DNA of 56,214 nt from Prevotella sp. (GTDB lineage Bacteria; Bacteroidota; Bacteroidia; Bacteroidales; Bacteroidaceae): assembly GCA_017470055.1 (NCBI GenBank), contig JAFUFD010000097.1:1-56214 (forward strand), read 5' to 3'. Both the position numbers and the translations under genes were made by a program. The notes under the pieces are model-generated. The model worked only from the letters and a program-made list of their open reading frames with translations. It made no database searches and was not told the origin of the DNA. Positions 4,301 to 23,340 of the stretch are shown here, in pieces. How positions within the stretch are numbered: the stretch's first letter is position 1; each line of letters begins with the position of its first letter.

Positions 4301-4647
4301 GGCATGCGGTTGAAATAGCCACTGGCACACTGAATCATTGTCCACACCCTGTTCTGGGCACAGACTTTCATCCATGAGTCGTAGATGGCAGGACCATTGG
4401 GCGACTTATCGTCACTTGACGAGGTGGCAATATTGAAAATCACATAGGGCCGCACATCCTCTGGCACCATATCGATAATCTTCTGCGGGTCAGCATATTG
4501 CCATACATCGATATGGATTATCCATGCTGGTTGCTCTGGTGATATGGGGCGACGAAGTGCCGTGCCGCTATGAGCGACACTTACTATACTGATTGCCGTC
4601 AGGCAAGTCAAGGCAAGGAGCCTCATGCTTAGGACAACTTTTTTCAT
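1330..4647 (-). CDS. GH98 endo-glycanase with CBM6/35-like module and sorting-type C-terminus
   Basis: This 1105-residue multidomain exported enzyme starts with a signal peptide (about 1-28). A GH98 domain follows at about 32-590, opening with RRPISPEQPAWIIHIDVW and containing the NFAEQYWG motif, whose E142 is a candidate catalytic acid. A CBM6/35-like beta-sandwich lies at about 618-735 (YEAELADYKG ... YVDCIKLEK). Two further beta-rich modules precede a final segment ending YDLNGHRVAQP ... GVYIVNGRKVIFK, which resembles type IX secretion sorting domains. GH98 was first known for cutting blood-group glycans, but from memory a Bacteroides ovatus GH98 in a complex-xylan locus is an endo-xylanase on glucuronoarabinoxylan. 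Linkage to GH10, uxuA and the SusC/D genes favours that activity here. Substrate is inferred; the family call is strong. Confidence 0.85.
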   Translation of the reverse strand: MKKVVLSMRLLALTCLTAISIVSVAHSGTALRRPISPEQPAWIIHIDVWQYADPQKIIDMVPEDVRPYVIFNIATSSSDDKSPNGPAIYDSWMKVCAQNRVWTMIQCASGYFNRMPDTPNDVSKYEQYFKEYPNFLGFNFAEQYWGFDDEGHVTFDNRLQLFAKLLTMSHTYGGYLAVSFADSYYGANKMPIAYVKRNADINTFLTSDPDHFLCFEKYTQKKNFLFNESYCLGAWLSGITGQYGIRFDSSGWVENGVKPDMQDGDTEYTVGTSDFVRAAGAIPIAEHMMLTGQTMMDGPELTWTECSKEGSTTSADGYTQRNWEWFPQFNNISLDLFRKVLDGTIRIMSKEEVMARTKVCVVSTGSGSNNASYRIDASLFDGLYRNEKDYGGLQGREANNWLNNRWWMKSTGRYPAIPEMLSAGSLEDISSTLSSVETKQAYMNSLFPEEYTGAIYAGRQENGWVTYNPYQYDDVTTDGVRTLSKATQRATGTIPFQYNTCTSVELDYAPYSLGIMKEYADKVTFYLSNYQNGAKSTDVIKINGASTKPSYSKTERGTNTSSTVTELWENNVYTLTVEHNGPVDLTINCAGVATGRKTDYTEARLSAPTAPAEYTGALQYEAELADYKGVTIKKVGDANNLGQGYVEMTSATSALRYHVNIPKAGYYELVLRYKADAAGETTLTTKDDSYVIATAQTSSWTETVMPVILTKGEQVIDLVNTGGKKTYVDCIKLEKKKIAPFNYDLNGDYHVDFNNITVTGDLTFDASTGVLTLPAGKTGSMLVLLDDADFTKVTKVTVTRSGDDIFQKLRISDLGDVAVNNNGAFWSSKYNLTYSESYQNEAASEHIYKLEWSAVSSETDRTMTISDILIKVNVTDGVIDETKGVPAVIPADVTTKDITYTRLLEAPSGNGDLSVNFQPARLYTVCLPYQPPTAEGLKYYTLGNVSGTALEFVEAETVAANTPYLVAVTDGSINIGKEEAITVDFNAPIVDGEAIGGYQLKGTLRGLTNAEAQGCYILQEGNVWNKVPANNGVVYIPPFRAYIVSSANNSARMYSVIGGSTTGVNRIKTTDVDGTVHWYDLNGHRVAQPTKRGVYIVNGRKVIFK

Positions 4648-4669
4648 AGAATTATCTTTTTCATTGTTT

Positions 4670-5560
4670 TTATGCCTTCACATCGATGGTCTTTGCGCTT
4701 TCCTCTTCCCAGTCGGTTACATAACTACCGTCTAAGACAAGTCCCTGGTCAGTCAGACGCATATTAATCGTATAGGTCTGTCCACCTTCCAACAGTACGG
4801 TCTCTGGCAAAGCATAAACCTGCCGAACACCATACACAGTAATAGCGAAGAAGTCTGTATTCGCCGCAATGGTCTGCGGTGGCAGGATTGCATAAGACGA
4901 CAAGCGCCAGTCGGTCACCATTTCCGGATACATCTGGATATCTGTCGTCGTATCCTCAATAGTCATCACTTTGACATTCTTGACATCCACATTCACGCTG
5001 TAAAATACATTCAGCAATTCTACGGAGACTTGCTGCAAGTCTATCACACCTGAGTCATCAATGATATGGATAACCACTTTCGCCATCATGTGCTGGAAAG
5101 AAATAGACGCATTGGTTTCATCCGATGTTGTCACCGCAGAACCTATCATGAGGTCACTCGCATTGTAAGAGGATAGGGATGACTGATCAGTCTGCACTTG
5201 GAAGACAGGAGTGGTTGTTAATACATCCTCACCCCACTCTTCTTGATAAGGACTGTATGCCACTATCTGCTTTCCTCGGGCAGAGGCTGTGAGGATGATA
5301 TGACCATCCTCATCAACCTTTACCTGCTGGAATGTCGTAGTTCCATCATTACCAATCATATAGATGCCTAACTGCGTTCCTGAGGGTATCGCCTGGGTAT
5401 TGCCATTCTCATCACTCAGGACAAAGGACATCTCCCCATTCTCATCATCGTCAATATAGACGAAGTCGTTGGAGTCACTGCATGCTGACAGCAATAGTAC
5501 AACTGCCATCACCAAGCAGGAGGTCAACTTATTGTATGATATGGATGGGAAATATTTCAT
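4670..5560 (-). CDS. Fimbrillin-like (Mfa_like_1 type) lipoprotein in the PUL
   Basis: This 296-residue lipoprotein has a lipobox ending at C27 (LLLSAC). The body has the fimbrillin/Mfa-like pattern: a YSPYQEEW segment, a ...ASDLMIGSA motif, then SFQHMMAKVVIHI, and a closing TDWEEE near the C-terminus. Proteins of this fold include fimbrial subunits, but in polysaccharide utilisation loci they sit where surface glycan-binding proteins are expected. It lies 21 bp after the larger fimbrillin-like gene and 22 bp before the GH98 gene, so it is part of the operon. It may be an accessory surface glycan binder or scaffold; no catalytic motif is visible. It is the most divergent of the three neighbouring fimbrillin-like proteins. 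Confidence 0.75.
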   Translation of the reverse strand: MKYFPSISYNKLTSCLVMAVVLLLSACSDSNDFVYIDDDENGEMSFVLSDENGNTQAIPSGTQLGIYMIGNDGTTTFQQVKVDEDGHIILTASARGKQIVAYSPYQEEWGEDVLTTTPVFQVQTDQSSLSSYNASDLMIGSAVTTSDETNASISFQHMMAKVVIHIIDDSGVIDLQQVSVELLNVFYSVNVDVKNVKVMTIEDTTTDIQMYPEMVTDWRLSSYAILPPQTIAANTDFFAITVYGVRQVYALPETVLLEGGQTYTINMRLTDQGLVLDGSYVTDWEEESAKTIDVKA

Positions 5561-5581
5561 AATAGATATGTGCTTTAATTA

Positions 5582-7333
5582 CTATTTCGAAAGGATCACA
5601 TCCTTGGCAAGGATATCGCAGGAGCCCGCATTACTACGTCCGCCAAAGGCTATCTTCGTCACTGTCGATAGGTCGATACCCAGTGCCGTCAGGTCAACCT
5701 CCTTGGTACCAGCGCTGTAGAAACCATTACCAAACTCCGTGAATGTCGAGCCTACATAATAACCCATACGAACTGGTCCGTCTACCAGGTTGCTAAAGGT
5801 GAAGGTCAGTTTGGAGTAGTTGGCAAGTTCACCATTGGCAAACTCAAACACTGTCATCAGATTACTGGTACTTCCTGTCCATGTGTAAGTAGGAGCATTG
5901 TAGGTGGCATTGCTACCTGGAGTACCAAAGGTGGCTGTCAAAGTGTTGTCATCTCCACTACCAGATCCTTCGCCACTACCACTTCCTGTTCCTTCCAGAT
6001 AGACATCTGAAGCAAGGATATCACAGGAGCCCGCATTACTACGTCCGCCAAAGGCTATCTTCGTCACTGTCGACAGGTCGATACCCAGTGCCGTCAGGTC
6101 AACCTCCTTGGTACCTGCACTGTAGTAGCCATTACCAAACTCCGTGAATGTCGAGCCAACATAGTAACCCATACGTACTGGTCCGTCTACCAAATTGCTA
6201 AAGGTGAATACTAATTTAGAAAAGTTTTTCAGTTCTCCATTGTTAAACTCAAAGATCGTCATCAGGTTACTGGTGCTACCTGTCCATGTATAGGTAGGAG
6301 CATTGTAAGAGGCGTTACTTGCTGGAGTCTGGAAGGTAGCATAAAGTTTAGTAGTCTCTCCTGGCTCATCAGGCTCATCAGAGCCGCCATTTTCTACCAA
6401 CTCGGCATCGCCTTCCAACGCGGTGGTATTGGAATCCCAATCAGTCACTTCCGTACTCATCTCAATCTCGATAGCAGCCTGAGCGCCCTCACCGAGAATC
6501 TTCACTGTATAGGTATATGCCTTACCAGACAGGAAACTGGTCTCACTCTTCAAAGGTGCCCTCAAGGTTCTGCCATCTGTCAGACTAATCTGGATGAAGT
6601 CATCAGCACCTACAGTCTGAGGAACGATAATCGCACTGGCGACAAACGCTGTGGCATCGGCAGCGAAGGTCACTGCCTTGATATCTGTTGCCGTACCCGA
6701 TGCGACACCCAATGTGGCATCACTCACCTTCAACGTCGTAGAGGGTTTCGTGTTGAGGATGCTGACGGAAGCCCCTTTCAGGTCCACATCAGTCTCTCCA
6801 CTGAAGGTAAACTTGATATTCAACTTAGAGAGCATGTGCTTAAACACCAAAGGCACTGCGGGTGTCGTCATGTTATAGGCATTCTCTCCTGCGGGTGCGC
6901 CACACAGCAGGTCGCTGGCAAGGTAATTGGCATCCGTACTCTGGTCTGTAGCGATGGAGAAATCCACTGCCTCGTCCATCTTACTGGTGAAAGCAGCATT
7001 ATAAGGAGCATAGGCATTCACGCTGACATTAGAGCCGTCCTCTGGGAAATAAAGGGTGTTTCCTGTGAAATTACCACTACCATCGGCTGTCATCTCGGCA
7101 TTGTCACCATCTTCAATATAGCCATTAGTACCTTTTACAAATACACCAATCTTCACACCCTCTGCTATCTGTGTCTTTTGCAGATTGGTGTTTGCCGTAC
7201 GCATGAGGTCCAAATTACTAACCAGTGTGATTGGTGTGGACTGACTGATGCTCTTTGTCTCTTGATCATCAGAAGAACAACTTGCAAAAGTAAGCATTGC
7301 AAGCCCTAAGGAAAGGATTGATAACTTTTTCAT
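5582..7333 (-). CDS. Fimbrillin-like lipoprotein fused to two near-identical beta-sandwich modules
   Basis: This 583-residue lipoprotein has its lipobox cysteine at C19 (TFASC). Residues about 30-300 form a fimbrillin-like domain (NAYAPY, YLASDLLCGAP, LVFKHMLSKLNIKF, EVTDWDSN). After an acidic linker come two almost identical modules at about 329-447 and 464-582, separated by a Gly/Ser linker. Each opens with ATF-x-TP, then YTWTGSTSNLM, and ends with KIAFGGRSNAGSCDIL. The modules look like binding domains rather than enzymes: no acid pair or nucleophile stands out and aromatic residues are plentiful. A related module appears in the exported protein at 25247-26668. In this operon a role in binding xylan at the cell surface is plausible but unproven. 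I know of no named family for the repeated module. Confidence 0.8.
   Translation of the reverse strand: MKKLSILSLGLAMLTFASCSSDDQETKSISQSTPITLVSNLDLMRTANTNLQKTQIAEGVKIGVFVKGTNGYIEDGDNAEMTADGSGNFTGNTLYFPEDGSNVSVNAYAPYNAAFTSKMDEAVDFSIATDQSTDANYLASDLLCGAPAGENAYNMTTPAVPLVFKHMLSKLNIKFTFSGETDVDLKGASVSILNTKPSTTLKVSDATLGVASGTATDIKAVTFAADATAFVASAIIVPQTVGADDFIQISLTDGRTLRAPLKSETSFLSGKAYTYTVKILGEGAQAAIEIEMSTEVTDWDSNTTALEGDAELVENGGSDEPDEPGETTKLYATFQTPASNASYNAPTYTWTGSTSNLMTIFEFNNGELKNFSKLVFTFSNLVDGPVRMGYYVGSTFTEFGNGYYSAGTKEVDLTALGIDLSTVTKIAFGGRSNAGSCDILASDVYLEGTGSGSGEGSGSGDDNTLTATFGTPGSNATYNAPTYTWTGSTSNLMTVFEFANGELANYSKLTFTFSNLVDGPVRMGYYVGSTFTEFGNGFYSAGTKEVDLTALGIDLSTVTKIAFGGRSNAGSCDILAKDVILSK
5588..6349 (-). 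repeat. Tandem intragenic duplication, two copies at a 405-bp period
   Basis: Copies at 5588-5944 and 5993-6349 encode the two C-terminal modules of the fimbrillin-like lipoprotein. Over long stretches they differ by only scattered single bases, many of them silent, so the duplication is recent or maintained by gene conversion. A short Gly/Ser-rich linker separates them. Such a repeat can gain or lose copies by homologous recombination. Confidence 0.9.
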
Positions 7334-7367
7334 AACTTATATTTTTTAGATTAATACTTATATTTAT

Positions 7368-8291: not shown

Positions 8292-9791
8292 TTATTCGTT
8301 CTCTTTTGTGTTATTGGGGATTCCATAGGGTACCAGTCGCATATTCGCAATACAGAACTGAAAAGAAGAAACCGCATGTGCGGGATGCAAAGCATCAAGT
8401 TGGTAGTTCAGCATCTTGATAATTGTCTGTTTCTTCTTGTCAACCAAGAACGTTTTCAGACTACCCAAGGTAGGATAAGTGCTCTCCGTCACCTTGAAAG
8501 TATTGAGAGGTATCGTGAAGGTCTGCCATCCGTCTGCAAAAGAGACTGGATTCTCCATATCCCACATCGCCGTCTGAGCAAACCATGACTGGGTCAGTGA
8601 CTTTCCTTGGTCTTTGTCCAGACGGAAAGAGATAAAACCAGTATCCCATACAGGCTCTCCGTCGGTATATACATAGATATCCATCTCCACGGCAAGATTG
8701 GCGCACTTGCTCTTGTCGGTGATCAGTCCATCGGAATGGTCTATCACGTACTGGATACGGTCGCCAAAACTGAAACGGAGATTTCCCGTGGAGGGATCCA
8801 GATTGCCATCCACTGCCCATGCCACTGGGGTGTCACCAAAGAAGGTGAGCATATAGTCTGGGTTGATCACATCGGTAGCCTCAGCCAGTGCATGTCCCTC
8901 AGGCAGTGCATCAGAGGCATGAACGGCTATTTTGTCAAACAGTGACTGCGTGATGTCTATCGTATTCTCAAACTCAGAGCCCGTGTAGGGTGCTTTCGTA
9001 TCATTCGTACTGAAGGTACGGAAGAATACACAGTTGTTACAGAACATATAGGGAGAGTAGGCACTAACATGCGCACCCTCTGACAGGCAACGGATAGGAC
9101 CTGCCACAAGATCAGCAACCGCAGGCATCACAAACTCAATCTGCTTAGAGGTAGAGGTAAAATCTGACACTTTCTCCTCACCAGTGGTAGTGGGCAGGTA
9201 GATATGATCTACGAACTGCAGGTTACGACCTGTCAGGATAATCTTCTCACCAGCCTTGGGCAACGTGCGGTTGACACCCGTGATAGCAGGCTCCGGGTCG
9301 CCAGTACGAGTCAGTGTACACATCAAGGTAGTGATATCCCCATTGGTCGTATACAAGTTCATCACATTATTACCAGTATGCACAGCCTTGATAGCGACTG
9401 CGCCATTCGCCTTTGCCGATGCAGTCGGTGTTAGTTCGATTGTCTTACCATCGAAGGAATAAGCGTATTCCATGTTGCAGACAGAATCACGAATAGAGGT
9501 CTGGGCATCCACAAACCAGTGTGACAGAATTGCCTCCTGGTCGTCCACACTTTGGAACTCCACTTTATAGGACTGCTCGAAATGGTCGGACTTGGTCTCC
9601 CCTACTTCCAGTGTTCCTTCCCAGATTCCAAACAACTGCTCGGCACCCAGTGCCACGCCCTCTGCTATCGTCACACCCTCAGGTGCGGGCAGCGAGGGAC
9701 CTTCGATGTCCTTGCTGCATCCCACGACAAGAAACAAGCAGCACAAAAGGAGAATCCCTTTCACCTTATTTATATTATATAATGTATTCAT
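8292..9791 (-). CDS. Surface glycan-binding lipoprotein (SGBP type, IPT domain)
   Basis: The protein is 499 residues when started at MNTLYNINKV (ATG at 9791). A longer reading to 10028 would run deep into the neighbouring gene and adds an Arg-rich, non-secretory N-terminus. The lipobox ends at C25 (FLVVGC). An IPT/TIG-like Ig fold (GVNRTLPKAGEKIILTGRNL) lies in the middle. The last 230 residues resemble the C-terminal glycan-binding domain of SGBP-B proteins of xyloglucan and xylan loci, with several aromatic residues suited to stacking on sugars. It would sit on the outer membrane beside SusC/SusD and capture polysaccharide. It starts 13 bp after the smaller IPT lipoprotein gene. Ligand is inferred from the locus enzymes. 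Confidence 0.85.
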   Translation of the reverse strand: MNTLYNINKVKGILLLCCLFLVVGCSKDIEGPSLPAPEGVTIAEGVALGAEQLFGIWEGTLEVGETKSDHFEQSYKVEFQSVDDQEAILSHWFVDAQTSIRDSVCNMEYAYSFDGKTIELTPTASAKANGAVAIKAVHTGNNVMNLYTTNGDITTLMCTLTRTGDPEPAITGVNRTLPKAGEKIILTGRNLQFVDHIYLPTTTGEEKVSDFTSTSKQIEFVMPAVADLVAGPIRCLSEGAHVSAYSPYMFCNNCVFFRTFSTNDTKAPYTGSEFENTIDITQSLFDKIAVHASDALPEGHALAEATDVINPDYMLTFFGDTPVAWAVDGNLDPSTGNLRFSFGDRIQYVIDHSDGLITDKSKCANLAVEMDIYVYTDGEPVWDTGFISFRLDKDQGKSLTQSWFAQTAMWDMENPVSFADGWQTFTIPLNTFKVTESTYPTLGSLKTFLVDKKKQTIIKMLNYQLDALHPAHAVSSFQFCIANMRLVPYGIPNNTKENE

Positions 9792-9804
9792 ATATCTCAA
9801 TGCC

Positions 9805-10485
9805 TTAATTCGTAAAATTAGTTGATGAGGAATAAACCTTCTCCGTATAGGTGATGTCACGTACCTCGTCGTATTTCTCCATGGCAATCTCACAGATTCC
9901 TGTGGCAAAGGTGGCATTCTCAGGAATGATGACATGCACCGTCTCGTCGTCATTCTCCTGCGTCTCGTCAAAGACACACTGTACCTTCTCCCCATAGACG
10001 AGAGGTAACCAGACCTCTTTGGCACCACCCAGGAAGGTTCCTGTGATAGTCAGTGTGCGACCTGGAATCAATGTCGTAGACGAGAAGGCGGTAATGGTAG
10101 GCTGCTCATCCTTCGATCTGACGACAAAAGGAAAGTCGCACATCCCCTTCGAGGTCACCACACGGATATTGTCTCCTGTCGTCTTCACATCAGAGGGCAG
10201 TTGGAAAGTGATATTATTGTCTGAGGCATAGACATACAATGTCGTCAGATTAATAGAGGTGCCATTGACTATCAGTTTCTTCAAGTCGCCAAAACCGCTT
10301 CCACGCAGGCAGATGGTCTGACCGGCATAGGCACAGGGTGCCTGTTCTATGGGGCGGGACACCATATTAAACCACACACTGTCAATACGGGGTGCCTCAT
10401 CATCGTCATTGCTACAAGAGGTGAACATAAAGAGAGCCACACCTATCAGCAACAATCCGTAAAGGTTCTTGATATTCTTATTCAT
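9805..10485 (-). CDS. IPT/TIG-domain surface lipoprotein
   Basis: The preferred start is the ATG at 10485 (MNKNIKNLYG), giving 226 residues with a lipobox ending at C24 (FMFTSC). Further ATGs at 10488 and 10512 are possible, but the chosen one gives a normal signal peptide. Two IPT/TIG-like Ig repeats are visible: PCAYAGQTICLRGSGFGDLKK and later LIPGRTLTITGTFLGG. Such small IPT proteins often follow susD and act as spacer-like or glycan-binding surface components. The start overlaps the end of susD by 8 bp, a sign of translational coupling. No enzymatic motif is present. Whether it binds glycan itself is unknown. Confidence 0.8.
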   Translation of the reverse strand: MNKNIKNLYGLLLIGVALFMFTSCSNDDDEAPRIDSVWFNMVSRPIEQAPCAYAGQTICLRGSGFGDLKKLIVNGTSINLTTLYVYASDNNITFQLPSDVKTTGDNIRVVTSKGMCDFPFVVRSKDEQPTITAFSSTTLIPGRTLTITGTFLGGAKEVWLPLVYGEKVQCVFDETQENDDETVHVIIPENATFATGICEIAMEKYDEVRDITYTEKVYSSSTNFTN

Positions 10486-12433
10486 CATAGCGGTAAGCGT
10501 TTTTATTTTCAATTACATTCGTAAAGTCATAATCGATAGGGGCTTCCAACAGATTGGCATCCTGCATAACCTCCGTAGGCGGATAGATCATCGACCAGAG
10601 GTTGTCATTGGTTGTCATATCCTGTGAGTGACACCAACTGCCAGTTGGGATATTATGCACACACTCCCTACTGGGTTGGATAATCTGATAACTGCCGTCC
10701 GCATCGTTGGTCTTCAGATAAGGCTCTCCTATCTTCGTCAAGTCGGCATTCTTTCGGTAGCCATAGTTATACAGGCGGTAGCAACCCATCAGCGGCTCAT
10801 CCTCCTGCTCTGCAATTTGGTTGTTCATATAGTTGACCATGCGTTTCAGATGGCTCTCACCCATATAGGAGCGACGCACGATATCCGACCAATAGAGACC
10901 CTCTGCGAAAAACTCCAGACGACGCTCTATCAACAGGGAATCGAGGTTCAAGGTGGTATAGTCACCTGTGTTTCCGTCAAGACCATAGGTACCCGCCTCT
11001 ATCTCCCTCTTATAGGCACGTTGACGGATGATATTGACGTTATCAAGCACTCTTGCACGAGTGGTGGTCTCCTCTCCGTTAAGTCCCATCAGTGCCTCGG
11101 CGAGATTCAGATAGACCTCACTTAGGCGCAACATCGGAGTACAGAAACCAGAGTTACCTTGGATAGCGATATTATCGGTACCCATCGGACCACCCACCAC
11201 CTGTTTCTTGACGGCTACGGGGTTCCAAGAGTCACGCACCACCGTCCAAGTATCACCCTGATGCTTGCCATAGTGGGTCTTACAGGTATCCTGCTCATGA
11301 TAGAGATAATCGTAAGTCATACCGTGGGGCATGATGTTTCCACGGCTACGGCTCAGACCACCACGCTGCTGACAAGCGAGCACGATATCATAACTTGCCC
11401 AGTTGGAGTAGGTCATACCATAGTTCTTATTCACGCAACGGTCGTAACAAAACATACCTTGCAACTCGTTACCCAGTCCGTAAGAGGTGCTTGATGCCAC
11501 AGACTGGATGGCGAAGAGTACTTCCTTACAGTTGTTGTTCTGTACACGGAAAATCTCCTCATAGTCATCCATCAGTCCATAACCACCGTTCGGTGCCTGT
11601 TCTATACAGATACGGGCGGCAAGGGCTGCCTTGGCATAGTAGAACTCCGCAAGATCCAGTTTTGCCTCGTATTCCACGTCACCCTCATAATAGGTATCCA
11701 GCACCCTTTTCTGGAAGTCATTGGTAAAATGGTTACCTTTCGCCCAGGCGGCTGCCGTCAGGTAGAGACGGGAGAGCAATCCCCATGCACTGACCTGTGA
11801 GACACGTCCTCTGGAGAGGGGTGACACTGGCAACCATTTTGCCGCATACTCTGCCTCACAGACAGCATACTGGATGACATTCTCGAAACTATTGGGATAA
11901 GCGGTGGGGCTCTGCGTCGTAGGTTCGTCCACGATGGGCACGTCATGCCAGTAGATGGCGAGGTACCAGTAGGCGATGGCACGCATGAAACGAGCCTCAG
12001 CAACACACGTGTTTGCCTCTTCCTCCGTACATATCTCATGCTCGATGCAATAGGGTGCGTAGTCGTTAATGATATAGGCAGCCTGTGTGATCACGTTATA
12101 CAGACTTGCCCATGAATACTGGATAGAGGCGTTCTGCTTCTCCTCATTCAGAGTAGCCTGCGCATTCACCTCTCCTAATGTGGAGTTGGAGACATACAGG
12201 TTATTGGCACGGGCATCACCCAAGGAGATGAAACGCTGCTTGTGGAAATAGTACCAAGGCTGGGCATAGAGATTTGCCGTCGTGGCACGCAGTGCGTCGA
12301 TATCCGTCAGTTCCTCATGTGCAGGAACCACACGCTCATTGTCGGTGTCCAGGTATTTATCGCAACTTGTCAGACAGACTAACAGGCTGGGAAGACACAG
12401 TAACATAAGAACATATTTTGTCTTGGTTTTCAT
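10478..12433 (-). CDS. susD: SusD/RagB-family starch-utilisation-like lipoprotein
   Basis: This 651-residue outer-membrane lipoprotein has its lipobox at C24 (LVCLTSC) followed by DKYLDTDNE, typical of the family. The long alpha-helical TPR-like body includes ARFMRAIAYWYLAIYWHDVPIV and, toward the end, LRLSEVYLNLAEALMG and ERRLEFFAEGLYWSDIVR, signatures of SusD_RagB proteins. SusD forms a lid on the SusC barrel and captures oligosaccharides. It lies 33 bp downstream of susC and overlaps the next gene. It is somewhat longer than the common 500-600 residues. The ligand is most likely a xylan oligosaccharide given GH10 and GH98 in the operon. The symbol denotes the family only. Confidence 0.95.
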   Translation of the reverse strand: MKTKTKYVLMLLCLPSLLVCLTSCDKYLDTDNERVVPAHEELTDIDALRATTANLYAQPWYYFHKQRFISLGDARANNLYVSNSTLGEVNAQATLNEEKQNASIQYSWASLYNVITQAAYIINDYAPYCIEHEICTEEEANTCVAEARFMRAIAYWYLAIYWHDVPIVDEPTTQSPTAYPNSFENVIQYAVCEAEYAAKWLPVSPLSRGRVSQVSAWGLLSRLYLTAAAWAKGNHFTNDFQKRVLDTYYEGDVEYEAKLDLAEFYYAKAALAARICIEQAPNGGYGLMDDYEEIFRVQNNNCKEVLFAIQSVASSTSYGLGNELQGMFCYDRCVNKNYGMTYSNWASYDIVLACQQRGGLSRSRGNIMPHGMTYDYLYHEQDTCKTHYGKHQGDTWTVVRDSWNPVAVKKQVVGGPMGTDNIAIQGNSGFCTPMLRLSEVYLNLAEALMGLNGEETTTRARVLDNVNIIRQRAYKREIEAGTYGLDGNTGDYTTLNLDSLLIERRLEFFAEGLYWSDIVRRSYMGESHLKRMVNYMNNQIAEQEDEPLMGCYRLYNYGYRKNADLTKIGEPYLKTNDADGSYQIIQPSRECVHNIPTGSWCHSQDMTTNDNLWSMIYPPTEVMQDANLLEAPIDYDFTNVIENKNAYRYDE

Positions 12434-15861: not shown

Positions 15862-17604
15862 TTAGTCAACTGATGATTTTGTTTCATCCTCTATTGAATT
15901 TGTGTCACTACCCCTTTTCTCCCGTTGATGTTTGGCAATATACTCTGATGGAGTGACTCCAAAATACTTCTTGAAAGCAGCGGTAAAATTGGTCGGATTG
16001 GCGAAGCCGACGGCATAGGTGACCTGTGAGACGGAGATGTCACCAGCGGCAAGCAACTTGGCGGCTTGCTGCATGCGCAGGTTACGGATGAACTCTCCGA
16101 CGGTGATTCCCGTCAGTTCTTTCATACGACGGTGCAACTGGGCACGGCTCAGTCCCACCTCTTCGGCAAGTGCCTCCACATTGAAGTCGCTGTCGTCCAA
16201 CCGCTCGTTGACCACTTTCATGATTTTGTCCATCAGCGAGGCATCATTCCCTTTCAGTTCCACCTGCCTTACAACACCCTCCTGCTCCTGAATACCCGAG
16301 AACTTTCCTTTTACACGGATACGGTTGGCTATCAGACTGGCGGCACGAGCCTCCAGTTCCTCCAGATTGAAGGGTTTGTCGATATACGCCTCGGCACCCT
16401 GCTCCAGTCCCTCAATACGTGACTGCTGGGCAGTCTTTGTCGTCAACAGGATAACGGGAATATGACTGGTCTTTGTACTGCCCTTGATGCGTTTCAGCAG
16501 TTCAATACCATCCATCTCCGGCATCACGACATCTGATATGACAAGATCGGGCACAATATCAGCAATACCCTCTAATGCCTTTTCCCCGTCAGGATAGGTA
16601 TGTACATGGTAGGTGGCTCCCAACTCCGTCTCCAAGAAGGAGCGTATCTCCTCGTCATCGTCAACGACCACCACATGATAGGTTGTCTTCTTCCTGACTT
16701 TCTTTGGACGCACATCATGGGTAGTCACCATACCTTTCTCTTCTGGTGAAGACGAGGCAAAGTAGTCTCCTTCCACCAGTTGCTCCTTGGCGAGATGACT
16801 ATTGCCTAACGGGATGGATACCAAGAACTCCGCTCCATGACCATCACCACGGTTGGATACCTTGATCTCTCCTCCATGCAGTTTTACAATCTGAGAGGCG
16901 AGGTTCAGTCCGATGCCGTAGCCCATCTGTCCTGCCACTGGTCGTGCGGAGGTCTGGTAGAAGCGTTCAAAGACTTTCTTCAACTGGTCCTCATCAATAC
17001 CTGGTCCGTTATCACGCACGGCAAGCCGGAAGAGTTGCTGCTCTGGCAAATGTATCAGTTCCACATCCACCTTACCACCGTCTTCCACATATTTCAACGC
17101 ATTATTGATGAGGTTGCTGACTACCTTGTCGAAATTCTCCCTGTCAATCCATACATTCAACGGGTCGACGGGACTATAGAACGACAACTGGATTTTACGC
17201 TTCTCCACCACATAGTCATATTGCTTACAGATATCTCCCACAAAGGCTGTCATATTCGTCTCTGCGAAATGCAGTTTCATTTGTCCCTTCTCTATCTTGC
17301 GAATACTCAATATCTGGTTGACCAGCATCAGCAGACGGTTGGTATTACGCTCCATGTTCTGCAAGGCATGAGTCGTCTCCGGGTCATAACTGCCTTTCAA
17401 CAGTTTGTCGAGCGGACTCTTGATAAGGGTCAACGGAGAGCGTAACTCATGACTGATATCCACGAAGAACTTGATCTTCTCCTCGTTGGTCTCTGCCTGC
17501 CGCTTGTTCCAGAACGAACGCCACCACAGCATGACGATAGCGGCAAGCAGTAGCAGGTAGAACATATAGGCTCCCCAGGAACGATACCAGGGGGGGGGTA
17601 ACAT
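15862..17604 (-). CDS. Hybrid two-component system regulator, C-terminal half (frame-split)
   Basis: This reading frame of up to 580 residues carries the cytoplasmic half of a PUL hybrid regulator. It has a transmembrane helix (about 11-28, YMFYLLLLAAIVMLWW), a HisKA domain with phospho-acceptor His52 in DISHELRSPLTL, and an ATPase domain with N-box NLINNAL and DNGPGIDE. A receiver domain follows with the phospho-acceptor Asp358 in LVISDVVMPEMDG, then an AraC-type double helix-turn-helix at about 470-565 (SRAQLHRRMKELTG). It lacks its own sensor: the periplasmic part is in the upstream frame, and the two meet at a run of nine C. With eight C the frames join as HVTPPWYRSW, matching the usual PPWWR-type junction. 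All catalytic residues are intact, so this is a phase or sequencing shift, not decay. Confidence 0.9.
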   Translation of the reverse strand: MLPPPWYRSWGAYMFYLLLLAAIVMLWWRSFWNKRQAETNEEKIKFFVDISHELRSPLTLIKSPLDKLLKGSYDPETTHALQNMERNTNRLLMLVNQILSIRKIEKGQMKLHFAETNMTAFVGDICKQYDYVVEKRKIQLSFYSPVDPLNVWIDRENFDKVVSNLINNALKYVEDGGKVDVELIHLPEQQLFRLAVRDNGPGIDEDQLKKVFERFYQTSARPVAGQMGYGIGLNLASQIVKLHGGEIKVSNRGDGHGAEFLVSIPLGNSHLAKEQLVEGDYFASSSPEEKGMVTTHDVRPKKVRKKTTYHVVVVDDDEEIRSFLETELGATYHVHTYPDGEKALEGIADIVPDLVISDVVMPEMDGIELLKRIKGSTKTSHIPVILLTTKTAQQSRIEGLEQGAEAYIDKPFNLEELEARAASLIANRIRVKGKFSGIQEQEGVVRQVELKGNDASLMDKIMKVVNERLDDSDFNVEALAEEVGLSRAQLHRRMKELTGITVGEFIRNLRMQQAAKLLAAGDISVSQVTYAVGFANPTNFTAAFKKYFGVTPSEYIAKHQREKRGSDTNSIEDETKSSVD

Positions 17605-19849
17605 GGATTCTCAGTTCCTTGACGGGTGAGTATACCCCATTATCGTATGCCCTGACCTGCAAGCGATGACTCCCCACGGCAAGGCGGGTGAAGAATATCT
17701 CACTGACTCCGGAGGCTGTCTGGTGCCATACATCCTTCGCCTCATCATTGAAACGGTATTCATAGTGTACATTCTGCGCATCCCGGAAATCCATGGACGA
17801 GAAGCGCAAACTAAACGTATTGTCGTAATAGGAGATAGTGATGTCGGTGGTCTCCTCCAACGACTTGGTGATGATATGCCTGCCATCCGACAGCGTAGTG
17901 CCGTTCACTTCCAGATTCCCCAATCGTATACCCGTCAGGGTAATACTCTCTTCAAACCGCTCCTTGACAATCTTATTCGGGACGAAATAGGTGATACCAT
18001 TCAGGTGACCCATGATGATCTCTCCTTGACAGGAATAGGCGAACACACCCCGCAGGTACGACCAGTTCTCCAGTCCGTTGCCACGATAGTAACGGGTGAA
18101 GGTTCCGTTGGCATCAAACTGTGCCAGTCCACGGAAAGTACTAATCCAGACGGTGCCATCTTTCGTGATGACGAGTCCGCAGACAACATCGTTAGGCAAG
18201 CCATCTTTGGAGGTGAAACGTTTCCACTGTCCCTCCTTATTATATTTAAAGAGTCCCTTGTTACTGCCAATCCATATTGAGCCGTCGGACGACTGGCTAA
18301 TGGCATAGACGATGGCAGGACGTAGCATCGAGTCTACAGGAATATCCACCAACTGGTCGGTCTTAGGGTCATAGACATCAATACCATAGTAATGCCCAAT
18401 CCAGATACGCCCGTCCTTGTCAGTATATAGCGTGTTCAGATACTTGTTATGGAGATCGAGGTTGCCCTTGCCCAGTACCCGCTCCGTCAGACCGTCGGGG
18501 CTATAACTGTGCAACCCGTCATTGAAGGAGGCGGTATAGATATTCCCCTCCCTGTCTTGGGTGATACTATGAATACGCTGAGTTCCCGTTGAGGCTATCC
18601 ATTCCTCCTTACCCGTCCGGGGATCTATCTTAAACAGACCATTGCGGAAAGTACCAGCCCAGTAAGTACCTTGGCGGTCTACAAACATCGTCATGACGGT
18701 ATGGTTGCCCATCCAATGGCGCAATGTCTTCCCCTCATGAGTAATATCCGTAATGCCTCCCTGCTCCTGACAGACATATACATGATGGTCCCTATCGGTG
18801 AAGACGGCACGCAGATGATTGCCGTTGTCGGTCTCCATCTGGTGGAGCCCCAGGTAATGGAAGGCATTGGCTCTTGCGGGTATAAACGCCAGCCCTTTCT
18901 GGAAACAGCCTATCCAGCGGTTGCCGTTACGGTCTTCCAAGAAGGAGCGTATCTTGACAAGCCCCTGTCCTACCTGCCCTTCCATCTGAATGTCCATCGT
19001 ATTTACCTCCCTCTTGGCAAAGTCGACCTGCCAAAGACCGCTACCCATAGTGCCGATGAAATACTGCTTCTTAGGTGTCTGGTAAATATACAATACAGAA
19101 CTACGGGGATAGGAGATGATGGACTCAAACTCCATGGTTTGCTCATTCAGTTGCATGACCTCACTATAAGAGGTGATAGTGAGGCGATGCTGCTGGTCCT
19201 CGATGATATCACAAGGACGTCGTGCATTCAACTGTTGCTCATCATAGTAGCGGCTCTTGCCCGTCTTCAAGTCAATCATCTGCAGTCCCGACATCCGATA
19301 GCCTAACCAGAGGCGATCCTTGCTGTCAAGATACATGTTGTCGCCTTCCTCCTTTTTCTGTACCAGGCGGTTGATGCGCTCCACTGGGGTTGCCGTCATA
19401 TCATTGGTATTCACCTTGAAAATACCGTCATGGGAACTCAGTAACCATATCTCGCCGTCGGGAGTCTGCAGGATATCATTGACATCGCTCTGAGGACTAC
19501 CATGGAACAAAAGGGACTCAAAACTATCGGACATCCTGTTGTAACGCTGTACACCACTGTTGCCGATAACCCATACCGTACCATCACGGTCGACCATCAA
19601 CAGACGGACGATATCGTCAGACAGGGAATGGGGGTCGCTGTCATCGTGGTAATACTGGGTGAAATGCCCCCCGTCAAACTTATTCAGTCCGTACTCAGTT
19701 CCTATCCAGATATAGCCCTGCTGGTCCTGACACAGACTCGTAATCAGATTTGACGACAGGTCGTCGTCAGTATAAAAGCGGGCTGCGCTTGCCGCCAATG
19801 GCAACATAACAGCCAATAACAGTATTTTAAGTCTAAATAGTAGCCTCAT
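17447..19849 (-). CDS. Hybrid two-component system regulator, N-terminal sensor half (frame-split)
   Basis: Starting at ATG 19849 (MRLLFRLKILLLAVMLPLAA) gives a clean signal peptide; an upstream ATG at 19894 adds 15 residues and is less likely. The periplasmic region is a two-bladed-propeller sensor built from repeats of the kind GYIWIGTEYGLNKFD, DGRIWIGHYYGIDVYD and DGTVWISTFRGLAQFD. A Y_Y_Y-type Ig domain (about residues 690-770) precedes the membrane. After HVTPP the frame runs into about 40 nonsense residues ending in a stop at 17447. In the family this part binds a polysaccharide-derived oligosaccharide and signals to the kinase half. Restoring the frame gives 1328 residues, a normal length. 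Placement directly upstream of susC indicates control of the xylan operon. Confidence 0.9.
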   Translation of the reverse strand: MRLLFRLKILLLAVMLPLAASAARFYTDDDLSSNLITSLCQDQQGYIWIGTEYGLNKFDGGHFTQYYHDDSDPHSLSDDIVRLLMVDRDGTVWVIGNSGVQRYNRMSDSFESLLFHGSPQSDVNDILQTPDGEIWLLSSHDGIFKVNTNDMTATPVERINRLVQKKEEGDNMYLDSKDRLWLGYRMSGLQMIDLKTGKSRYYDEQQLNARRPCDIIEDQQHRLTITSYSEVMQLNEQTMEFESIISYPRSSVLYIYQTPKKQYFIGTMGSGLWQVDFAKREVNTMDIQMEGQVGQGLVKIRSFLEDRNGNRWIGCFQKGLAFIPARANAFHYLGLHQMETDNGNHLRAVFTDRDHHVYVCQEQGGITDITHEGKTLRHWMGNHTVMTMFVDRQGTYWAGTFRNGLFKIDPRTGKEEWIASTGTQRIHSITQDREGNIYTASFNDGLHSYSPDGLTERVLGKGNLDLHNKYLNTLYTDKDGRIWIGHYYGIDVYDPKTDQLVDIPVDSMLRPAIVYAISQSSDGSIWIGSNKGLFKYNKEGQWKRFTSKDGLPNDVVCGLVITKDGTVWISTFRGLAQFDANGTFTRYYRGNGLENWSYLRGVFAYSCQGEIIMGHLNGITYFVPNKIVKERFEESITLTGIRLGNLEVNGTTLSDGRHIITKSLEETTDITISYYDNTFSLRFSSMDFRDAQNVHYEYRFNDEAKDVWHQTASGVSEIFFTRLAVGSHRLQVRAYDNGVYSPVKELRIHVTPPLVSFLGSLYVLPATACRYRHAVVAFVLEQAAGRDQRGEDQVLRGYQS
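17590..17598 (-). other. Homopolymeric C9 tract splitting the regulator gene
   Basis: Nine consecutive C (G on the plus strand) lie exactly where the sensor frame and the kinase frame should join. Eight C would make one continuous 1329-codon gene from 19849 to 15862 (3987 bases). Slippage at the tract, or a miscount in the assembly, explains the split. Confidence 0.9.
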
Positions 19850-19865
19850 AGTTATAATTTTGCTA

Positions 19866-19873
19866 CAAAGATA
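19866..19873 (-). promoter_or_regulatory. Putative promoter of the hybrid regulator, -7 element
   Basis: TATCTTTG on the minus strand, followed by TAGCA, matches TAnnTTTG. It lies 16 bp before the preferred ATG at 19849, which would leave a leader of only about ten nucleotides and argues against the longer start at 19894. Confidence 0.6.
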
Positions 19874-20024
19874 CACTTTTTCCGAAGAATACATATCTTT
19901 TTACCATATTTTTTTAAACAGACAGGTTTACCCACATCAAATAACATATATGTATTCTCGGAGAGTGGGCTGCTAAATTGGCTTGGTGGGTATATGGCGG
20001 GCATTAGGTAGAAGGCAACTGCTT

Positions 20025-20650: not shown

Positions 20651-21022
20651 TTATTGATGATAATACGCCTTACGGTCGTTGACGATACCACTCAAGTTGT
20701 TGAGTGCCCAGTCCACAAGGTCGTGGATGTGGGGCAACAGTGACCGTGAGCGGTCTGTGAGTTCATATTCCACACGAGGTGGCACTTCGGCATAGGCATG
20801 ACGAAGTACCAGACCATCTGCCTCAAGGTCGCGCAAGGTCTGGGCAAGCATTTTCTGACTGATATCAGGGATGGCGGTCTCAATAGCCTTGAAGCGCATG
20901 GGCTGACTGGCGCCATCGAGGGTGAGCAGCACGAGGATAGACCACTTGTCGCCTATCCGTGCAATGATGTTACGGATAGGGCACTCAGGAAATATCGGGT
21001 CAACAACTTGATTTTTCGTCAT
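20651..21022 (-). CDS. HxlR-family transcriptional regulator
   Basis: This 123-residue winged-helix protein has the HxlR signature: IARIGDKWSILVLLTL, MRFKAIETAIPDISQKMLAQTL, LEADGLVLRHAYAEVPPRVEYELT and a C-terminal helix. Cys14 (PECPIRN) lies where redox-sensing members such as YodB and HypR have their reactive cysteine. Those regulators respond to quinones, aldehydes or hypochlorite and often control nitroreductases. Its ATG overlaps the stop of the nitroreductase gene by 4 bp, so it is the last gene of the five-gene operon beginning with the ACG-repeat peptide. It probably regulates this operon, perhaps in response to thiol stress. Family call is secure, signal is inferred. Confidence 0.9.
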   Translation of the reverse strand: MTKNQVVDPIFPECPIRNIIARIGDKWSILVLLTLDGASQPMRFKAIETAIPDISQKMLAQTLRDLEADGLVLRHAYAEVPPRVEYELTDRSRSLLPHIHDLVDWALNNLSGIVNDRKAYYHQ

Positions 21023-21603
21023 AAGTCTTCAATAATATTATAGCGTCCTGGTTTGCGGGGCTTCTCTTTCGGGTAGTCGCCTTTGCAGTAGCCTAAGAGT
21101 ACGAAACAGCGGGCAACATAGCCATAGGGAACACCCCAGTTATACATCAACTGGTGACCATAGTCGCTGTCAAAGGTCTCCTCACCACGGGCAATGATGC
21201 AGGAACTGATGCCGAGTTCGGTGGCGGCAAGCACCATGTTCTCCGCACAGCAGAAGGCATCGGGGATGCTGTAGAGGAAATTGCCCTGGGCGAAGATGAC
21301 GCACACCGTCGGCGCTCCGTAGAAACCGCTCTTGATGGTGGGGTCGTCTATGATGCTGGGCTGCTCATTGGAGACGAAATTACCTGCCAGACGACTTCGG
21401 TCCATCTTACCCAGATTCATCTTGCCGACAGCCTCCGTCAACTTCGGGTCGCGCAGGGCAACAATCATGCTACGCTGCCCGCCGCCGGCATTGGGAGCAT
21501 AAAGACCTGCCTCGATAATCTTCTCCAAGTCTTCCCTTGGTATCTGCCGCTCCTCATACTTGCGGATGGAACGGCGGTAACGGATGAGTTCAAATAGGTT
21601 CAT
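21019..21603 (-). CDS. Nitroreductase-family FMN oxidoreductase
   Basis: This 194-residue protein has the nitroreductase fold signature: an N-terminal RRSIRKYEERQIPREDLEKI, the FMN-contacting GLYAPNAGGGQ, and the central AFCCAENMVLAATELGISSC. Members reduce quinones or nitro compounds using NAD(P)H, and some act as flavin dehydrogenases on peptide natural products. It lies 2 bp after the small monooxygenase gene and overlaps the HxlR gene. The neighbourhood allows two readings: detoxification of electrophiles under HxlR control, or a tailoring enzyme for the ACG-repeat peptide. The sequence does not decide. No signal peptide, so it is cytoplasmic. Confidence 0.88.
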   Translation of the reverse strand: MNLFELIRYRRSIRKYEERQIPREDLEKIIEAGLYAPNAGGGQRSMIVALRDPKLTEAVGKMNLGKMDRSRLAGNFVSNEQPSIIDDPTIKSGFYGAPTVCVIFAQGNFLYSIPDAFCCAENMVLAATELGISSCIIARGEETFDSDYGHQLMYNWGVPYGYVARCFVLLGYCKGDYPKEKPRKPGRYNIIEDL

Positions 21604-21605
21604 AT

Positions 21606-21890
21606 TTACTTCTCAAAACGTTCTACCTTCAGCCCATCAGCAGTCAATGCTCTAAGAGCAGGGATGGCACTGGTGAGGTGTGGGGCTTTTGAGTGCTTGT
21701 CGAGGACTTCTGCGTTCTCCCAACTCTCACAGAACATGAAGACTTTGGGATTGATTGTACTCTGAAACAGATCGTAACCGAGACAGCCCTCATCCTGACG
21801 GGACTTGGCGACAAGTTCATTGGTGATTGCCAGCACATCTTCAGTGCTTGCGCCCTCTTTGAGGGTAAAGAATACATTAAGACGAATCAT
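21606..21890 (-). CDS. ABM-domain monooxygenase (antibiotic biosynthesis monooxygenase-like)
   Basis: This 94-residue protein forms one dimeric alpha/beta-barrel ABM domain: MIRLNVFFTLKEGASTEDV, then RQDEGCLGYDLFQS, VFMFCESWEN and HSKAPHL. Relatives include YgiN-type quinol monooxygenases and cofactor-free oxygenases of antibiotic pathways. It lies 21 bp after the radical SAM gene and 2 bp before the nitroreductase gene, so co-expression is very likely. It could pair with the nitroreductase in quinone metabolism or help finish the peptide product. Substrate unknown. The short length is complete for the family. Confidence 0.85.
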   Translation of the reverse strand: MIRLNVFFTLKEGASTEDVLAITNELVAKSRQDEGCLGYDLFQSTINPKVFMFCESWENAEVLDKHSKAPHLTSAIPALRALTADGLKVERFEK

Positions 21891-21911
21891 GTCTGTTTTT
21901 GTTCTTTTGAT

Positions 21912-22952
21912 TTACGAGTTACTATTTACTTCTTTCCAGCATTGAGGGTCTGATGCATAGAAGTTTTTGGTATAGCCATAGGCGACGGCAGGACAGCCAC
22001 GACAGAAACGGAGCAGTTCGCAGTTGCGGCATTTCTCGAAGCGCTCATGCTGGCGGTATTGCTCCATTTTCGAACCATGGAAGACATCGTACAGTTCCTC
22101 ATCGACCGTTCCCACATAACTCTCAAAGCGGCGACAAGCCATCAGTCGACCTTCGGCAGAGATCGTAAAGTGGCAGTTGCCACAGTTGCAGCCGTCGTAG
22201 ATAGTGTCTTCGTCGAGTCCCTCGGGAATCTTGAAGAGTCCCTTCTCATAGAGGAACAGCGTCCAGAGGTGATCTTTCAGGTTGAAAGTCGTCTCGGAGT
22301 CTTTGTACTGCTCGAACTTTGCCCAGCATTCCTCCAAGAACTGGCGGTAGCGTTCTGGCTCCACATGCCATGTCTCTTGGTGGGCACGGTCCTCACTTGT
22401 CGGACAATAGCGTCCAAAGGCGAAGATGTCCGCTTGATGCTCCACGATGACATCTATCAACTGCGGAATCTCATCAATATTCGTTGATGAGATGGTGGAC
22501 ATGATGGCACAGTGCATCCCGCTCTTGCGGACGGTCTCGATGGCTCGTAGCGTTGCATCGAAAGAGCCAGGCTTGCGGAAACGGTCATGCGTCTCACGCA
22601 GTCCGTCAAGACTCAACTGATATTTCCTGCATCCCAACGACTTCATCCTTCGGCATACCTCATCCGTCAGATGGAACGGGTTGCCCATCAGTGTGAAAGG
22701 AATACCATGCGAGTGAACCAGTTCGAGGAAATCCCAGAAACGACTATGCAGAATCGGGTCGCCACCTGTTATATATAAATAAGGTGTACGTCGCATTCGC
22801 TCCGCCATGCGCTCTACGTTTGCAAGCACTGCCACTAACCTGTCCCAAGACATCTCCACCAGTTTCGGATGCCCATTGGAGAAGATGTAACAGTGCTTGC
22901 AACGCTGGTCGCACTCGTCAGTAATATGCCACTGGAATGCAAAATAGTCCAT
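21912..22952 (-). CDS. Radical SAM/SPASM peptide-maturase-like enzyme
   Basis: This 346-residue enzyme has the radical SAM cluster motif C-x3-C-x2-C at C14, C18 and C21 (TDECDQRCKHCYIF), followed by the YITGGDPILH segment. A Cys-rich SPASM region fills the last third: CNCGNCHFTISAEGRLMACRR, then CRNCELLRFCRGCP and a final Cys near the end. SPASM enzymes bind extra iron-sulfur clusters and commonly modify ribosomal peptides by forming thioether or carbon-carbon links. The gene starts 5 bp after the ACG-repeat peptide gene, the classic precursor-maturase arrangement. From memory, family databases name a radical SAM/SPASM group for an ACGX system; I could not check. No leader-binding (RRE) domain is evident. 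Confidence 0.9.
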   Translation of the reverse strand: MDYFAFQWHITDECDQRCKHCYIFSNGHPKLVEMSWDRLVAVLANVERMAERMRRTPYLYITGGDPILHSRFWDFLELVHSHGIPFTLMGNPFHLTDEVCRRMKSLGCRKYQLSLDGLRETHDRFRKPGSFDATLRAIETVRKSGMHCAIMSTISSTNIDEIPQLIDVIVEHQADIFAFGRYCPTSEDRAHQETWHVEPERYRQFLEECWAKFEQYKDSETTFNLKDHLWTLFLYEKGLFKIPEGLDEDTIYDGCNCGNCHFTISAEGRLMACRRFESYVGTVDEELYDVFHGSKMEQYRQHERFEKCRNCELLRFCRGCPAVAYGYTKNFYASDPQCWKEVNSNS

Positions 22953-22957
22953 GGTGC

Positions 22958-23170
22958 TTATTTCTCACCAGCACCACAGGCGCTACCGCAAGCGGCAGGT
23001 TTTTCCTCGGCGGTCTTGTCACCAGTACCGCAGGCACTTCCGCAAGCAGCGGGTTTCTCCTCGGCGGGTTTGTCACCAGTACCACAGGCTGCACCGCATG
23101 CGGCGGGTTTCTCGTCCTGTTTCATCATTCCCTGTGCGCTATGCGCAAAGTTGTAATCGATTCTTTTCAT
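22958..23170 (-). CDS. ACG-repeat peptide, candidate RiPP precursor
   Basis: This 70-residue peptide has a 19-residue leader-like start (MKRIDYNFAHSAQGMMKQD) and then three repeats of 18 residues containing KPAACG(A/S)ACG. Six cysteines fall in three C-x3-C pairs (25/29, 43/47, 61/65) separated by charged GDK(P/T)AEE spacers; the third repeat ends the protein. No hydrophobic export signal is seen. The composition, modular repeats and the radical SAM/SPASM gene 5 bp downstream make it a strong candidate substrate for ribosomal peptide modification, perhaps Cys-based crosslinks. A metal-binding or redox-buffer role is an alternative, given the HxlR/nitroreductase neighbours. A good promoter lies upstream. 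Confidence 0.85.
   Translation of the reverse strand: MKRIDYNFAHSAQGMMKQDEKPAACGAACGTGDKPAEEKPAACGSACGTGDKTAEEKPAACGSACGAGEK
22961..23113 (-). repeat. Three 54-bp intragenic repeats in the peptide gene
   Basis: Copies at 23060-23113 and 23006-23059 are full length; 22961-23005 is truncated by the end of the gene. They encode the ACG-x-ACG units and are nearly identical, so copy number could vary by slippage. Confidence 0.9.
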
Positions 23171-23227
23171 TGTCTCAAAATGTTTTTAGTTTATATGCTA
23201 ATAGTTACTTTTCGTTCGTAACCGATG

Positions 23228-23257
23228 CAAAGATACTAAAATCCTCTTAAAAGACAA
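23228..23257 (-). promoter_or_regulatory. Promoter of the radical SAM peptide operon
   Basis: On the minus strand TTG (23255-23257) and TATCTTTG (23228-23235) are separated by 19 bp, an excellent match to the Bacteroidetes consensus. The start of the peptide gene is about 57 bp downstream. This is the only clear promoter for the five-gene cluster. Confidence 0.75.
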
Positions 23258-23340
23258 TGAACGAACCAGAAAGTTTGTTACTTCCTAAAGGTAACTATTG
23301 CTTATTGCCAGAAGGTTACGCTTTTCACGATTGTGCTTTT

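Follow-up and report, generated by a model that had tools for sequence, protein, structure and literature searches.

The locus described here lies on the minus strand of a 56,214-nucleotide stretch of DNA from Prevotella sp. (the window: positions 1 to 56,214 of contig JAFUFD010000097.1, assembly GCA_017470055.1), where five genes occupy positions 20651-23170. From 5' to 3' they encode a Cys-rich peptide with ACG repeats (AcgA), a radical SAM/SPASM enzyme (AcgM), an ABM-domain protein, a nitroreductase and an HxlR regulator (Table 1). An earlier reading, made from the letters of the DNA alone (the sequence-only reading), had described five packed genes with gaps of at most 21 bp, and rightly so: the coordinates were reproduced from the open reading frames (ORFs) of the window, with 5 bp between acgA and acgM, 21 bp between acgM and the ABM gene, 2 bp between the latter and the nitroreductase gene, and a 4-bp overlap between the nitroreductase and HxlR genes.

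Table 1. Genes and predicted control elements of the ACGX locus in the window
Feature	Position	Strand	Basis
acgA, 70 aa ACGX-repeat peptide	22958..23170	-	TIGR04341, 59.4 bits (cut-off 28)
acgM, 346 aa radical SAM/SPASM enzyme	21912..22952	-	TIGR04340, 552.6 bits (cut-off 400)
ABM-domain protein, 94 aa, accessory	21606..21890	-	PF03992, 58.4 bits (over Pfam cut-off)
Flavin mononucleotide (FMN)-type nitroreductase, 194 aa	21019..21603	-	PF00881, 83.1 bits (over Pfam cut-off)
HxlR/DUF24 regulator, 123 aa, Cys14 (CPIRN)	20651..21022	-	PF01638, 94.2 bits (over Pfam cut-off)
Promoter TTG-N19-TATCTTTG (-33/-7 type)	23228..23258	-	Pattern match; similar boxes ahead of acgA in relatives
Operator-like dyad GTTAC-N9-GTAAC, just downstream of the -7 box	23204..23222	-	GTNAC-N9-GTNAC recurrence in relatives
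Second dyad GTTAC-N9-GTAAC, upstream of the promoter	23277..23295	-	Perfect match at -125

The first two genes correspond to the system that NCBIfam calls ACGX (TIGR04341 target_ACGX and TIGR04340 rSAM_ACGX; acgA and acgM in RefSeq), with the enzyme gene adjacent to the peptide gene and both proteins far over the curated cut-offs. The ACG-type pair is therefore known by name, as had been supposed, and the proposed layout of a precursor plus SPASM enzyme is supported; it resembles that of ribosomally synthesised and post-translationally modified peptides (RiPPs). The models describe the pair alone; this analysis adds the reductase slot, the dyad that goes with HxlR, a PNPOx-ferredoxin protein and SirTM/macrodomain neighbours. 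A literature search, covering part of the matching titles, found no paper on the product or role of the pair, and the accessible portions of a survey of Bacteroidales RiPPs (PMC10352776) and of a review of radical SAM (rSAM) RiPPs (PMC8326336) contain nothing on it. A paper on zinc-macrodomains (PMC11490716) likewise had none of the six terms looked for in its text. What is new is its setting, the reductase rule and the dyad, none of which was found in this partly examined literature.

Conservation was followed in 301 genomes of the same family, in 237 genomes drawn from the order, and in a set of ACGX loci of 76 rows, reduced for the counts to 67 dereplicated loci by leaving out one row identical to the window (L006), three with an rSAM protein shorter than 330 aa (L073, L097, L098) and five at least 98.5% identical to a kept row (L005, L008, L009, L010, L012). 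These counts ignore kinship among the loci.

One slot of these loci, taken in the window by the nitroreductase gene, is filled by a reductase. The nitroreductase subfamily of the window (E <= 1e-40) is found in 4 of the 301 same-family genomes, all with acgM, and an unrelated quinone-oxidoreductase-like MDR protein (query from L034, E <= 1e-60) is found in 5; at these thresholds the two sets of genomes are disjoint and their union is exactly the 9 genomes that carry acgM. The same exclusion is seen in the dereplicated loci, 38 of which have the MDR, 21 the nitroreductase, none both and 8 neither (45 with the MDR only, 22 with the nitroreductase only, 0 and 9 in the 76 rows before dereplication). 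Along a tree of AcgM of a quick kind the label changes between nitroreductase and MDR 11 times, and the starred branches alone force 5-6 changes; the number of swaps is approximate, because 26 of the 64 inner branches are open. To judge from this gene content, nitroreductase and MDR are mutually exclusive in one slot and both are locus-specific.

The best nitroreductase among the 237 order genomes, other than that of the window itself, has 37% identity to it, and those beside acgM in Treponema-labelled loci have 59-62%. For the MDR, the best match in the order genomes has 40% identity (G339, E 6e-66), other full-length MDRs reach 31% at most and one 91-residue fragment 47%, and MDRs beside acgM go down to 52-55%; the MDR subfamily thus has at least one looser relative elsewhere. 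When G339 and nine other order genomes with better reductase matches were checked, none of the 10 had acgM over the cut-off. Moreover, 9 of 72,556 plasmid records match the nitroreductase, and the two that do so at 60% identity or more carry it beside acgM. In three loci (L076, L081, L082) the nitroreductase is 91-92% identical to that of the window and the enzyme 63-64%, while L004, L011 and L091, at a similar enzyme distance, have nitroreductases of 64-68% identity; the excess of nitroreductase over enzyme identity in the first three is read as the cassette having been exchanged between ACGX loci. The fold nearest to the nitroreductase of the window is 3ek3.

Proteins of the MDR family are flavin-free and transfer hydride. 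The idea that the reductase supplies single electrons to AcgM was set aside because the alternative enzyme is of this hydride type and because, in a study on PapB, NADPH without FMN gave no product (PMC10470005).

The peptide of the window is composed of a leader, MKRxDxNFAHSAQG, followed by three ACGxACGx units at 18-residue spacing. The three C-x3-C pairs noticed in the sequence-only reading are present (6 Cys), but the pair does not stand as the repeated unit and was rejected as such, because several relatives (for example L076, L078 and L082) carry lone ACG units and the peptide of a Methanosphaera plasmid has six ACG units and one PCG, all seven of them lone, without a single pair; as far as sequences can tell, the conserved unit is the single ACG triplet. 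In 177 CGxxCG pairs the residue at +4 from the second Cys is Asp in 122 cases, Glu in 38 and Lys in 9; in the other 8 the chain stops short of this position. A quinone cofactor of the pyrroloquinoline quinone or mycofactocin kind was set aside as the product, the ACG repeats being without an aromatic residue.

In 61 of the 67 loci the enzyme gene is preceded by that of an ACG peptide, a recurrence which argues that the association is not due to chance. The six others are two loci cut at a contig end (L039, L091), one cut at 469 bp (L058) and three in which none was seen (L088-L090). Within the 301 genomes, acgM is over the cut-off in 9 and acgA in 8; every one of the 8 peptide-bearing genomes also has the enzyme, and in the one genome with acgM alone (G113) the enzyme gene starts at base 51 of its contig. 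A peptide without the SAM gene, the finding named beforehand as a refutation, was thus not encountered over the cut-off in these genomes. Two remnants suggest loss of the cassette in some lineages: a peptide-like frame below the cut-off, apparently decayed, in G282 (L107), where no enzyme passes the cut-off, and a fragment of acgM with two stops at G013:C3:112459-112740.

L088-L090 form a deep branch of acgM, with neither ACG peptide nor reductase, in which, in all three loci, two small proteins flank the rSAM gene (in L088 at 4497-4805 and 7018-7362, minus strand). These have an N-terminal hydrophobic stretch and CGTSC- or CGTC-type motifs at the end, and could possibly be anchored substrates; symporter- and permease-like genes were seen by eye downstream in L088, on the other strand.

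AcgM has the radical SAM motif CX3CX2C at C14/C18/C21 and nine C-terminal Cys predicted to serve two auxiliary clusters. Ten of its Cys (C14, C18, C21, C255, C273, C308, C311, C317, C320 and C338) are kept in 48 of 48 aligned sequences, C257 in 47 and C260 in 45, and the protein falls in the SPASM subclass (PF13186, 27.5 bits with a cut-off of 21.5); no RRE domain was seen in it. Its AlphaFold2 model has a predicted local distance difference test score of 85.8, with values below 50 at residues 14-29, the cluster loop, and the nearest folds are SuiB, SkfB and anSME. The next-best NCBIfam models, SbtM (178.7 bits, cut-off 350), AhbD, TIGR04053 and NirJ, are all below cut-off. The genome of the window has a single enzyme of this type, two further protein matches being distant at 22-24% identity. 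Maturases of the PapB/freyrasin type (PMC10470005) are comparable in that a SPASM rSAM enzyme lies beside a Cys peptide with many C-x3-D/E units; AcgM differs from them in scoring 61 bits on the PapB-family model NF047865, against a cut-off of 340, and by this model stays outside the PapB-type ranthipeptide group; D/E is not universal in ACG peptides.

Elements of the regulatory region recur in part of the relatives. The single consensus promoter that had been expected ahead of the cluster was located as a TTG-N-TANNTTTG box at 23258-23228. The pattern TTG-N17..21-TANNTTTG, which we take to be the Bacteroidetes promoter consensus, matches 3 times in the window where 0.61 matches are expected (4 of 100 shuffles reach 3), and it is found ahead of the peptide gene in 32 of 60 loci, compared with 0.49 in letter shuffles. 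A scan for GTNAC-N9-GTNAC, allowing at most 1 mismatch and confined to -44 to -60 relative to the acgA start codon, found the dyad in 15 of the 24 loci with a downstream HxlR gene on the same strand, in none of the 8 whose HxlR gene is upstream and on the same strand, in none of the 15 with a divergent upstream HxlR and in 3 of the 13 in which no HxlR is visible; the sequence of these three loci ends within 1.4 kb downstream. When the dyad was allowed anywhere in 220 bp the corresponding counts were 18/24 (shuffle mean 1.18, maximum 4), 0/8, 2/15 and 4/13, a wider count that takes in some matches lying across the promoter box. Perfect dyads in the downstream class have a spacer of 9 in 11 of 24 loci, against 0-1 for other spacers, and the divergent class has a few perfect dyads at spacers 6 and 14. 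This operator-like dyad is the predicted operator of HxlR.

An N-terminal Cys is a general trait of HxlR/DUF24 regulators, and here it is kept, in a CP motif, in 48 of the 48 dereplicated loci with HxlR. The regulator of the window matches the structures of YybR (HypR), 4a5m and 4a5n, and DUF24 regulators are reported to control nitro- and quinone reductases (PMC6943732, PMC6798810). The locus is like the regulons of the HypR/HypO type (PMC6943732) in placing an N-terminal-Cys HxlR/DUF24 regulator beside a nitroreductase, and differs from them in that the first genes of the operon are those of a peptide and a radical SAM enzyme. The redox setting proposed for the cluster is supported, and the hint at thiol-stress control that had been drawn from Cys14 has gained strength from the conserved Cys, from the operator-like dyad and from the sirtuin and macrodomain neighbours found in some loci.

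The other partners vary from locus to locus. The ABM protein, which had been listed as a member of the cluster, does not hold up as a core one: at 60% identity or more it is found in only 7 of the 67 loci, where a PNPOx-ferredoxin protein is found in 20, both in 0 and neither in 40. By its sequence, the PNPOx-ferredoxin protein joins a PNPOx-like domain to a 4Fe-4S region of the ferredoxin type; the fusion (E <= 1e-15) occurs in 1 of the 301 genomes, an acgM genome, and it is a candidate electron donor to AcgM.

The cassette has both SirTM and a macrodomain protein as neighbours in 8 of 66 genome loci (L048, L049, L053, L064, L091, L093, L096, L099) and on 2 of 3 plasmids; moreover, SirTM is found alone at the contig end in L095 and as fragments in L034. 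These identities rest on a SirTM match to 5a3a (E 1.9e-42) and on NF003163 over its cut-off. SirTM redox operons (SirTM, macrodomain, GcvH-L, LplA2, OYE/LLM) comprise a lipoylated carrier and oxidoreductases and have been connected with oxidative stress (PMC4518038). A subset of ACGX loci recalls them in having SirTM and macrodomain genes beside oxidoreductases and a small partner predicted to be modified, with the ACG peptide standing in the place of the lipoylated carrier; this is resemblance and not membership, and no GcvH or lipoate ligase was found with Pfam among 10 neighbour ORFs of L048, L049, L064, L091 and L096.

Export functions were looked for by comparing 45 non-core ORFs, on the same strand in the apparent operons of 66 of the 67 loci (the window being left out), with Pfam. 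They match 58 families, led by the macrodomain and a ThuA-like protein with 5 members each; the ThuA-like neighbours also match ABC_transp_aux weakly. The 25 of the 58 families listed include no exporter ATPase, leader peptidase or immunity gene, nor a metal transporter or metalloregulator, and the other 33 families match few members each. Among ORF clusters present in at least 5 loci, no exporter, leader peptidase or immunity gene was seen by sequence starts. The ThuA-like protein lies upstream of the peptide in L048, L049, L053, L056 and L066, some of which have a tandem-ABM protein further up, and its region in L048 (2215-5743) also holds a ferredoxin-nitroreductase fusion.

The cassette is mobile, judged by where it is found: it moves on plasmids and possibly with phages. 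acgM is present on plasmids of Roseburia, where the pair is annotated acgA and acgM, of Subdoligranulum and of the rumen archaeon Methanosphaera. A 24-kb IMG/VR contig (L161, IMGVR_UViG_3300010998_001242) has at 9743-12310 the full order of the window, that is peptide, rSAM, ABM, nitroreductase and HxlR, between a lysis amidase gene (phrog_822) and a tape-measure gene (phrog_25337), with a promoter and dyad ahead of it by eye; this copy is possibly a moron. Phage genome records match acgM in 8 cases, with 22-26% identity among the five matches listed. On the archaeal plasmid (L154, pNP174 of Methanosphaera sp. ISO3-F5) the region 3434-7018 holds PNPOx-ferredoxin-like and HxlR-like genes, the lone-ACG peptide and an MDR, and the rSAM gene is annotated as two coding sequences. 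A 504-kb IMG/VR contig (L162, IMGVR_UViG_3300028886_000026) carries at 9941-11026 an rSAM gene that passes the ACGX cut-off with 480.6 bits; a tail-fibre gene is close to it, and within 3 kb on either side of it there is no match to the peptide or partner queries.

The reading that we favour, with a probability of roughly 45%, is that these genes form an HxlR-controlled redox-response operon, which would make an rSAM-modified, Cys-rich intracellular peptide together with its own NAD(P)H reductase. An electrophile or oxidant would react with Cys14 of the dyad-bound HxlR and turn the operon on; AcgM would then modify each ACG unit of AcgA, with electrons from the flavin/ferredoxin partner where one is present; the nitroreductase, or the MDR in other loci, would pass hydride to the modified peptide, finishing or re-reducing it; and the peptide would remain intracellular, serving as a thiol or redox agent with multiple sites. 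Two considerations lead to this proposal. Nitroreductase and MDR can do the same work only on a substrate able to take up hydride, so that, going by the two families, the reductase probably acts on the modified peptide. Moreover, the gathering of a peptide, a radical enzyme, a redox-type regulator and a dedicated reductase in one operon suggests a role in intracellular redox stress and not a secreted antibiotic; the absence of export genes among the listed neighbours, with the redox character of these neighbours, likewise seems to make a secreted product less probable. Should the reductase act on the peptide, microbes of the rumen and gut would have a ribosomally made peptide devoted to redox chemistry within the cell, spread by plasmids and perhaps by phage. 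With two mutually exclusive reductases, the question of the product also becomes assayable, as a flavoenzyme of the nitroreductase fold and an MDR should both be able to reduce it. A bolder form of the proposal, which we consider rather unlikely, makes AcgA a genetically encoded redox carrier: AcgM would create redox-active or thiol-protected ACG sites, nitroreductase or MDR would recharge them with NAD(P)H, hosts with SirTM and macrodomain would switch the carrier by ADP-ribosylation in place of lipoyl-GcvH-L, and the cassette would cross phyla and reach archaea on plasmids and phages.

Several observations weigh against the redox-response operon. HxlR is near only 48 of the 67 loci, and the 56-kb window has no match to SirTM or macrodomain, which places it outside the SirTM redox operons. 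The link between reductase and enzyme is not complete on either side: G339, with no acgM over the cut-off, has an MDR that would pass the threshold of E <= 1e-60, and no reductase is found, where the locus is visible, in L069 and L072, both with a peptide, in L093, which has peptide, PNPOx and SirTM, or in L088-L090, which also lack the ACG peptide (L058 and L092 have none either, but these loci are cut short). The counts are moreover not independent, since G089 and G244 are of the same genus and the loci are related, and tight linkage could result from block transfer instead of shared function.

The main rival to the redox-response operon, somewhat unlikely in our judgement, is that the locus makes a peptide natural product by reductive tailoring: AcgM would form a dehydro or oxidised residue, the reductase would hydrogenate it, and the final bioactive peptide would be secreted. 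The locus-specific reductases agree with this, and there is precedent for two reductase types in one slot in the lanthipeptides, where either LanJA, a Zn/NADPH enzyme, or LanJB, a flavin enzyme, reduces dehydroalanine to D-Ala (PMC11519912). The lack of an exporter or leader peptidase in the families listed for the operon neighbours does not fit a secreted product, although export genes could lie elsewhere in the genome, and HxlR, PNPOx-ferredoxin and SirTM/macrodomain do not point to an antimicrobial cluster. It is improbable that we are dealing instead with an ordinary operon for detoxification of quinones or nitro compounds, of the HypR/HypO or QorR/Qor2 type, in which the peptide pair was linked by transfer and acts separately from the reductase. 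That DUF24 regulators commonly control such reductases, that the cassette is mobile on plasmids and a phage contig, and that G339 has a related MDR without acgM would all be explained by it; in the 301 genomes, however, the reductase subfamilies pass the thresholds only together with acgM, and the reductases are exchanged among acgM loci yet never co-occur, as generic enzymes need not do.

The two remaining explanations concern the chemistry of the peptide. A thioether-bridged ranthipeptide or sactipeptide with a structural or signalling role, with a bridge from every Cys to a residue close by (C-x3-D/E, as PapA/PapB have), would accord with the Asp or Glu found at +4 in 160 of the 177 second Cys of pairs, as PapB links Cys to the Asp of CX3D (PMC10470005); neither Treponema-labelled locus has the D/E, part of the L074-L084 group lacks it too, and the archaeal peptide does not have it at +4, which together with the low score of AcgM on the PapB model makes this quite improbable. 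Least probable is a metal-binding peptide, metallothionein-like or a metallophore: dense Cys at regular spacing would suit it, but the families listed for the operon neighbours include no metal transporter or metalloregulator, and simple chelation would not account for lone ACG units or for the rSAM enzyme that goes with the peptide.

Elsewhere in the window, an apparent hybrid two-component sensor at 15862-19894 is split in overlapping ORFs (17447-19894 and 15862-17604), which may reflect a frameshift or a misassembly in this putative gene.

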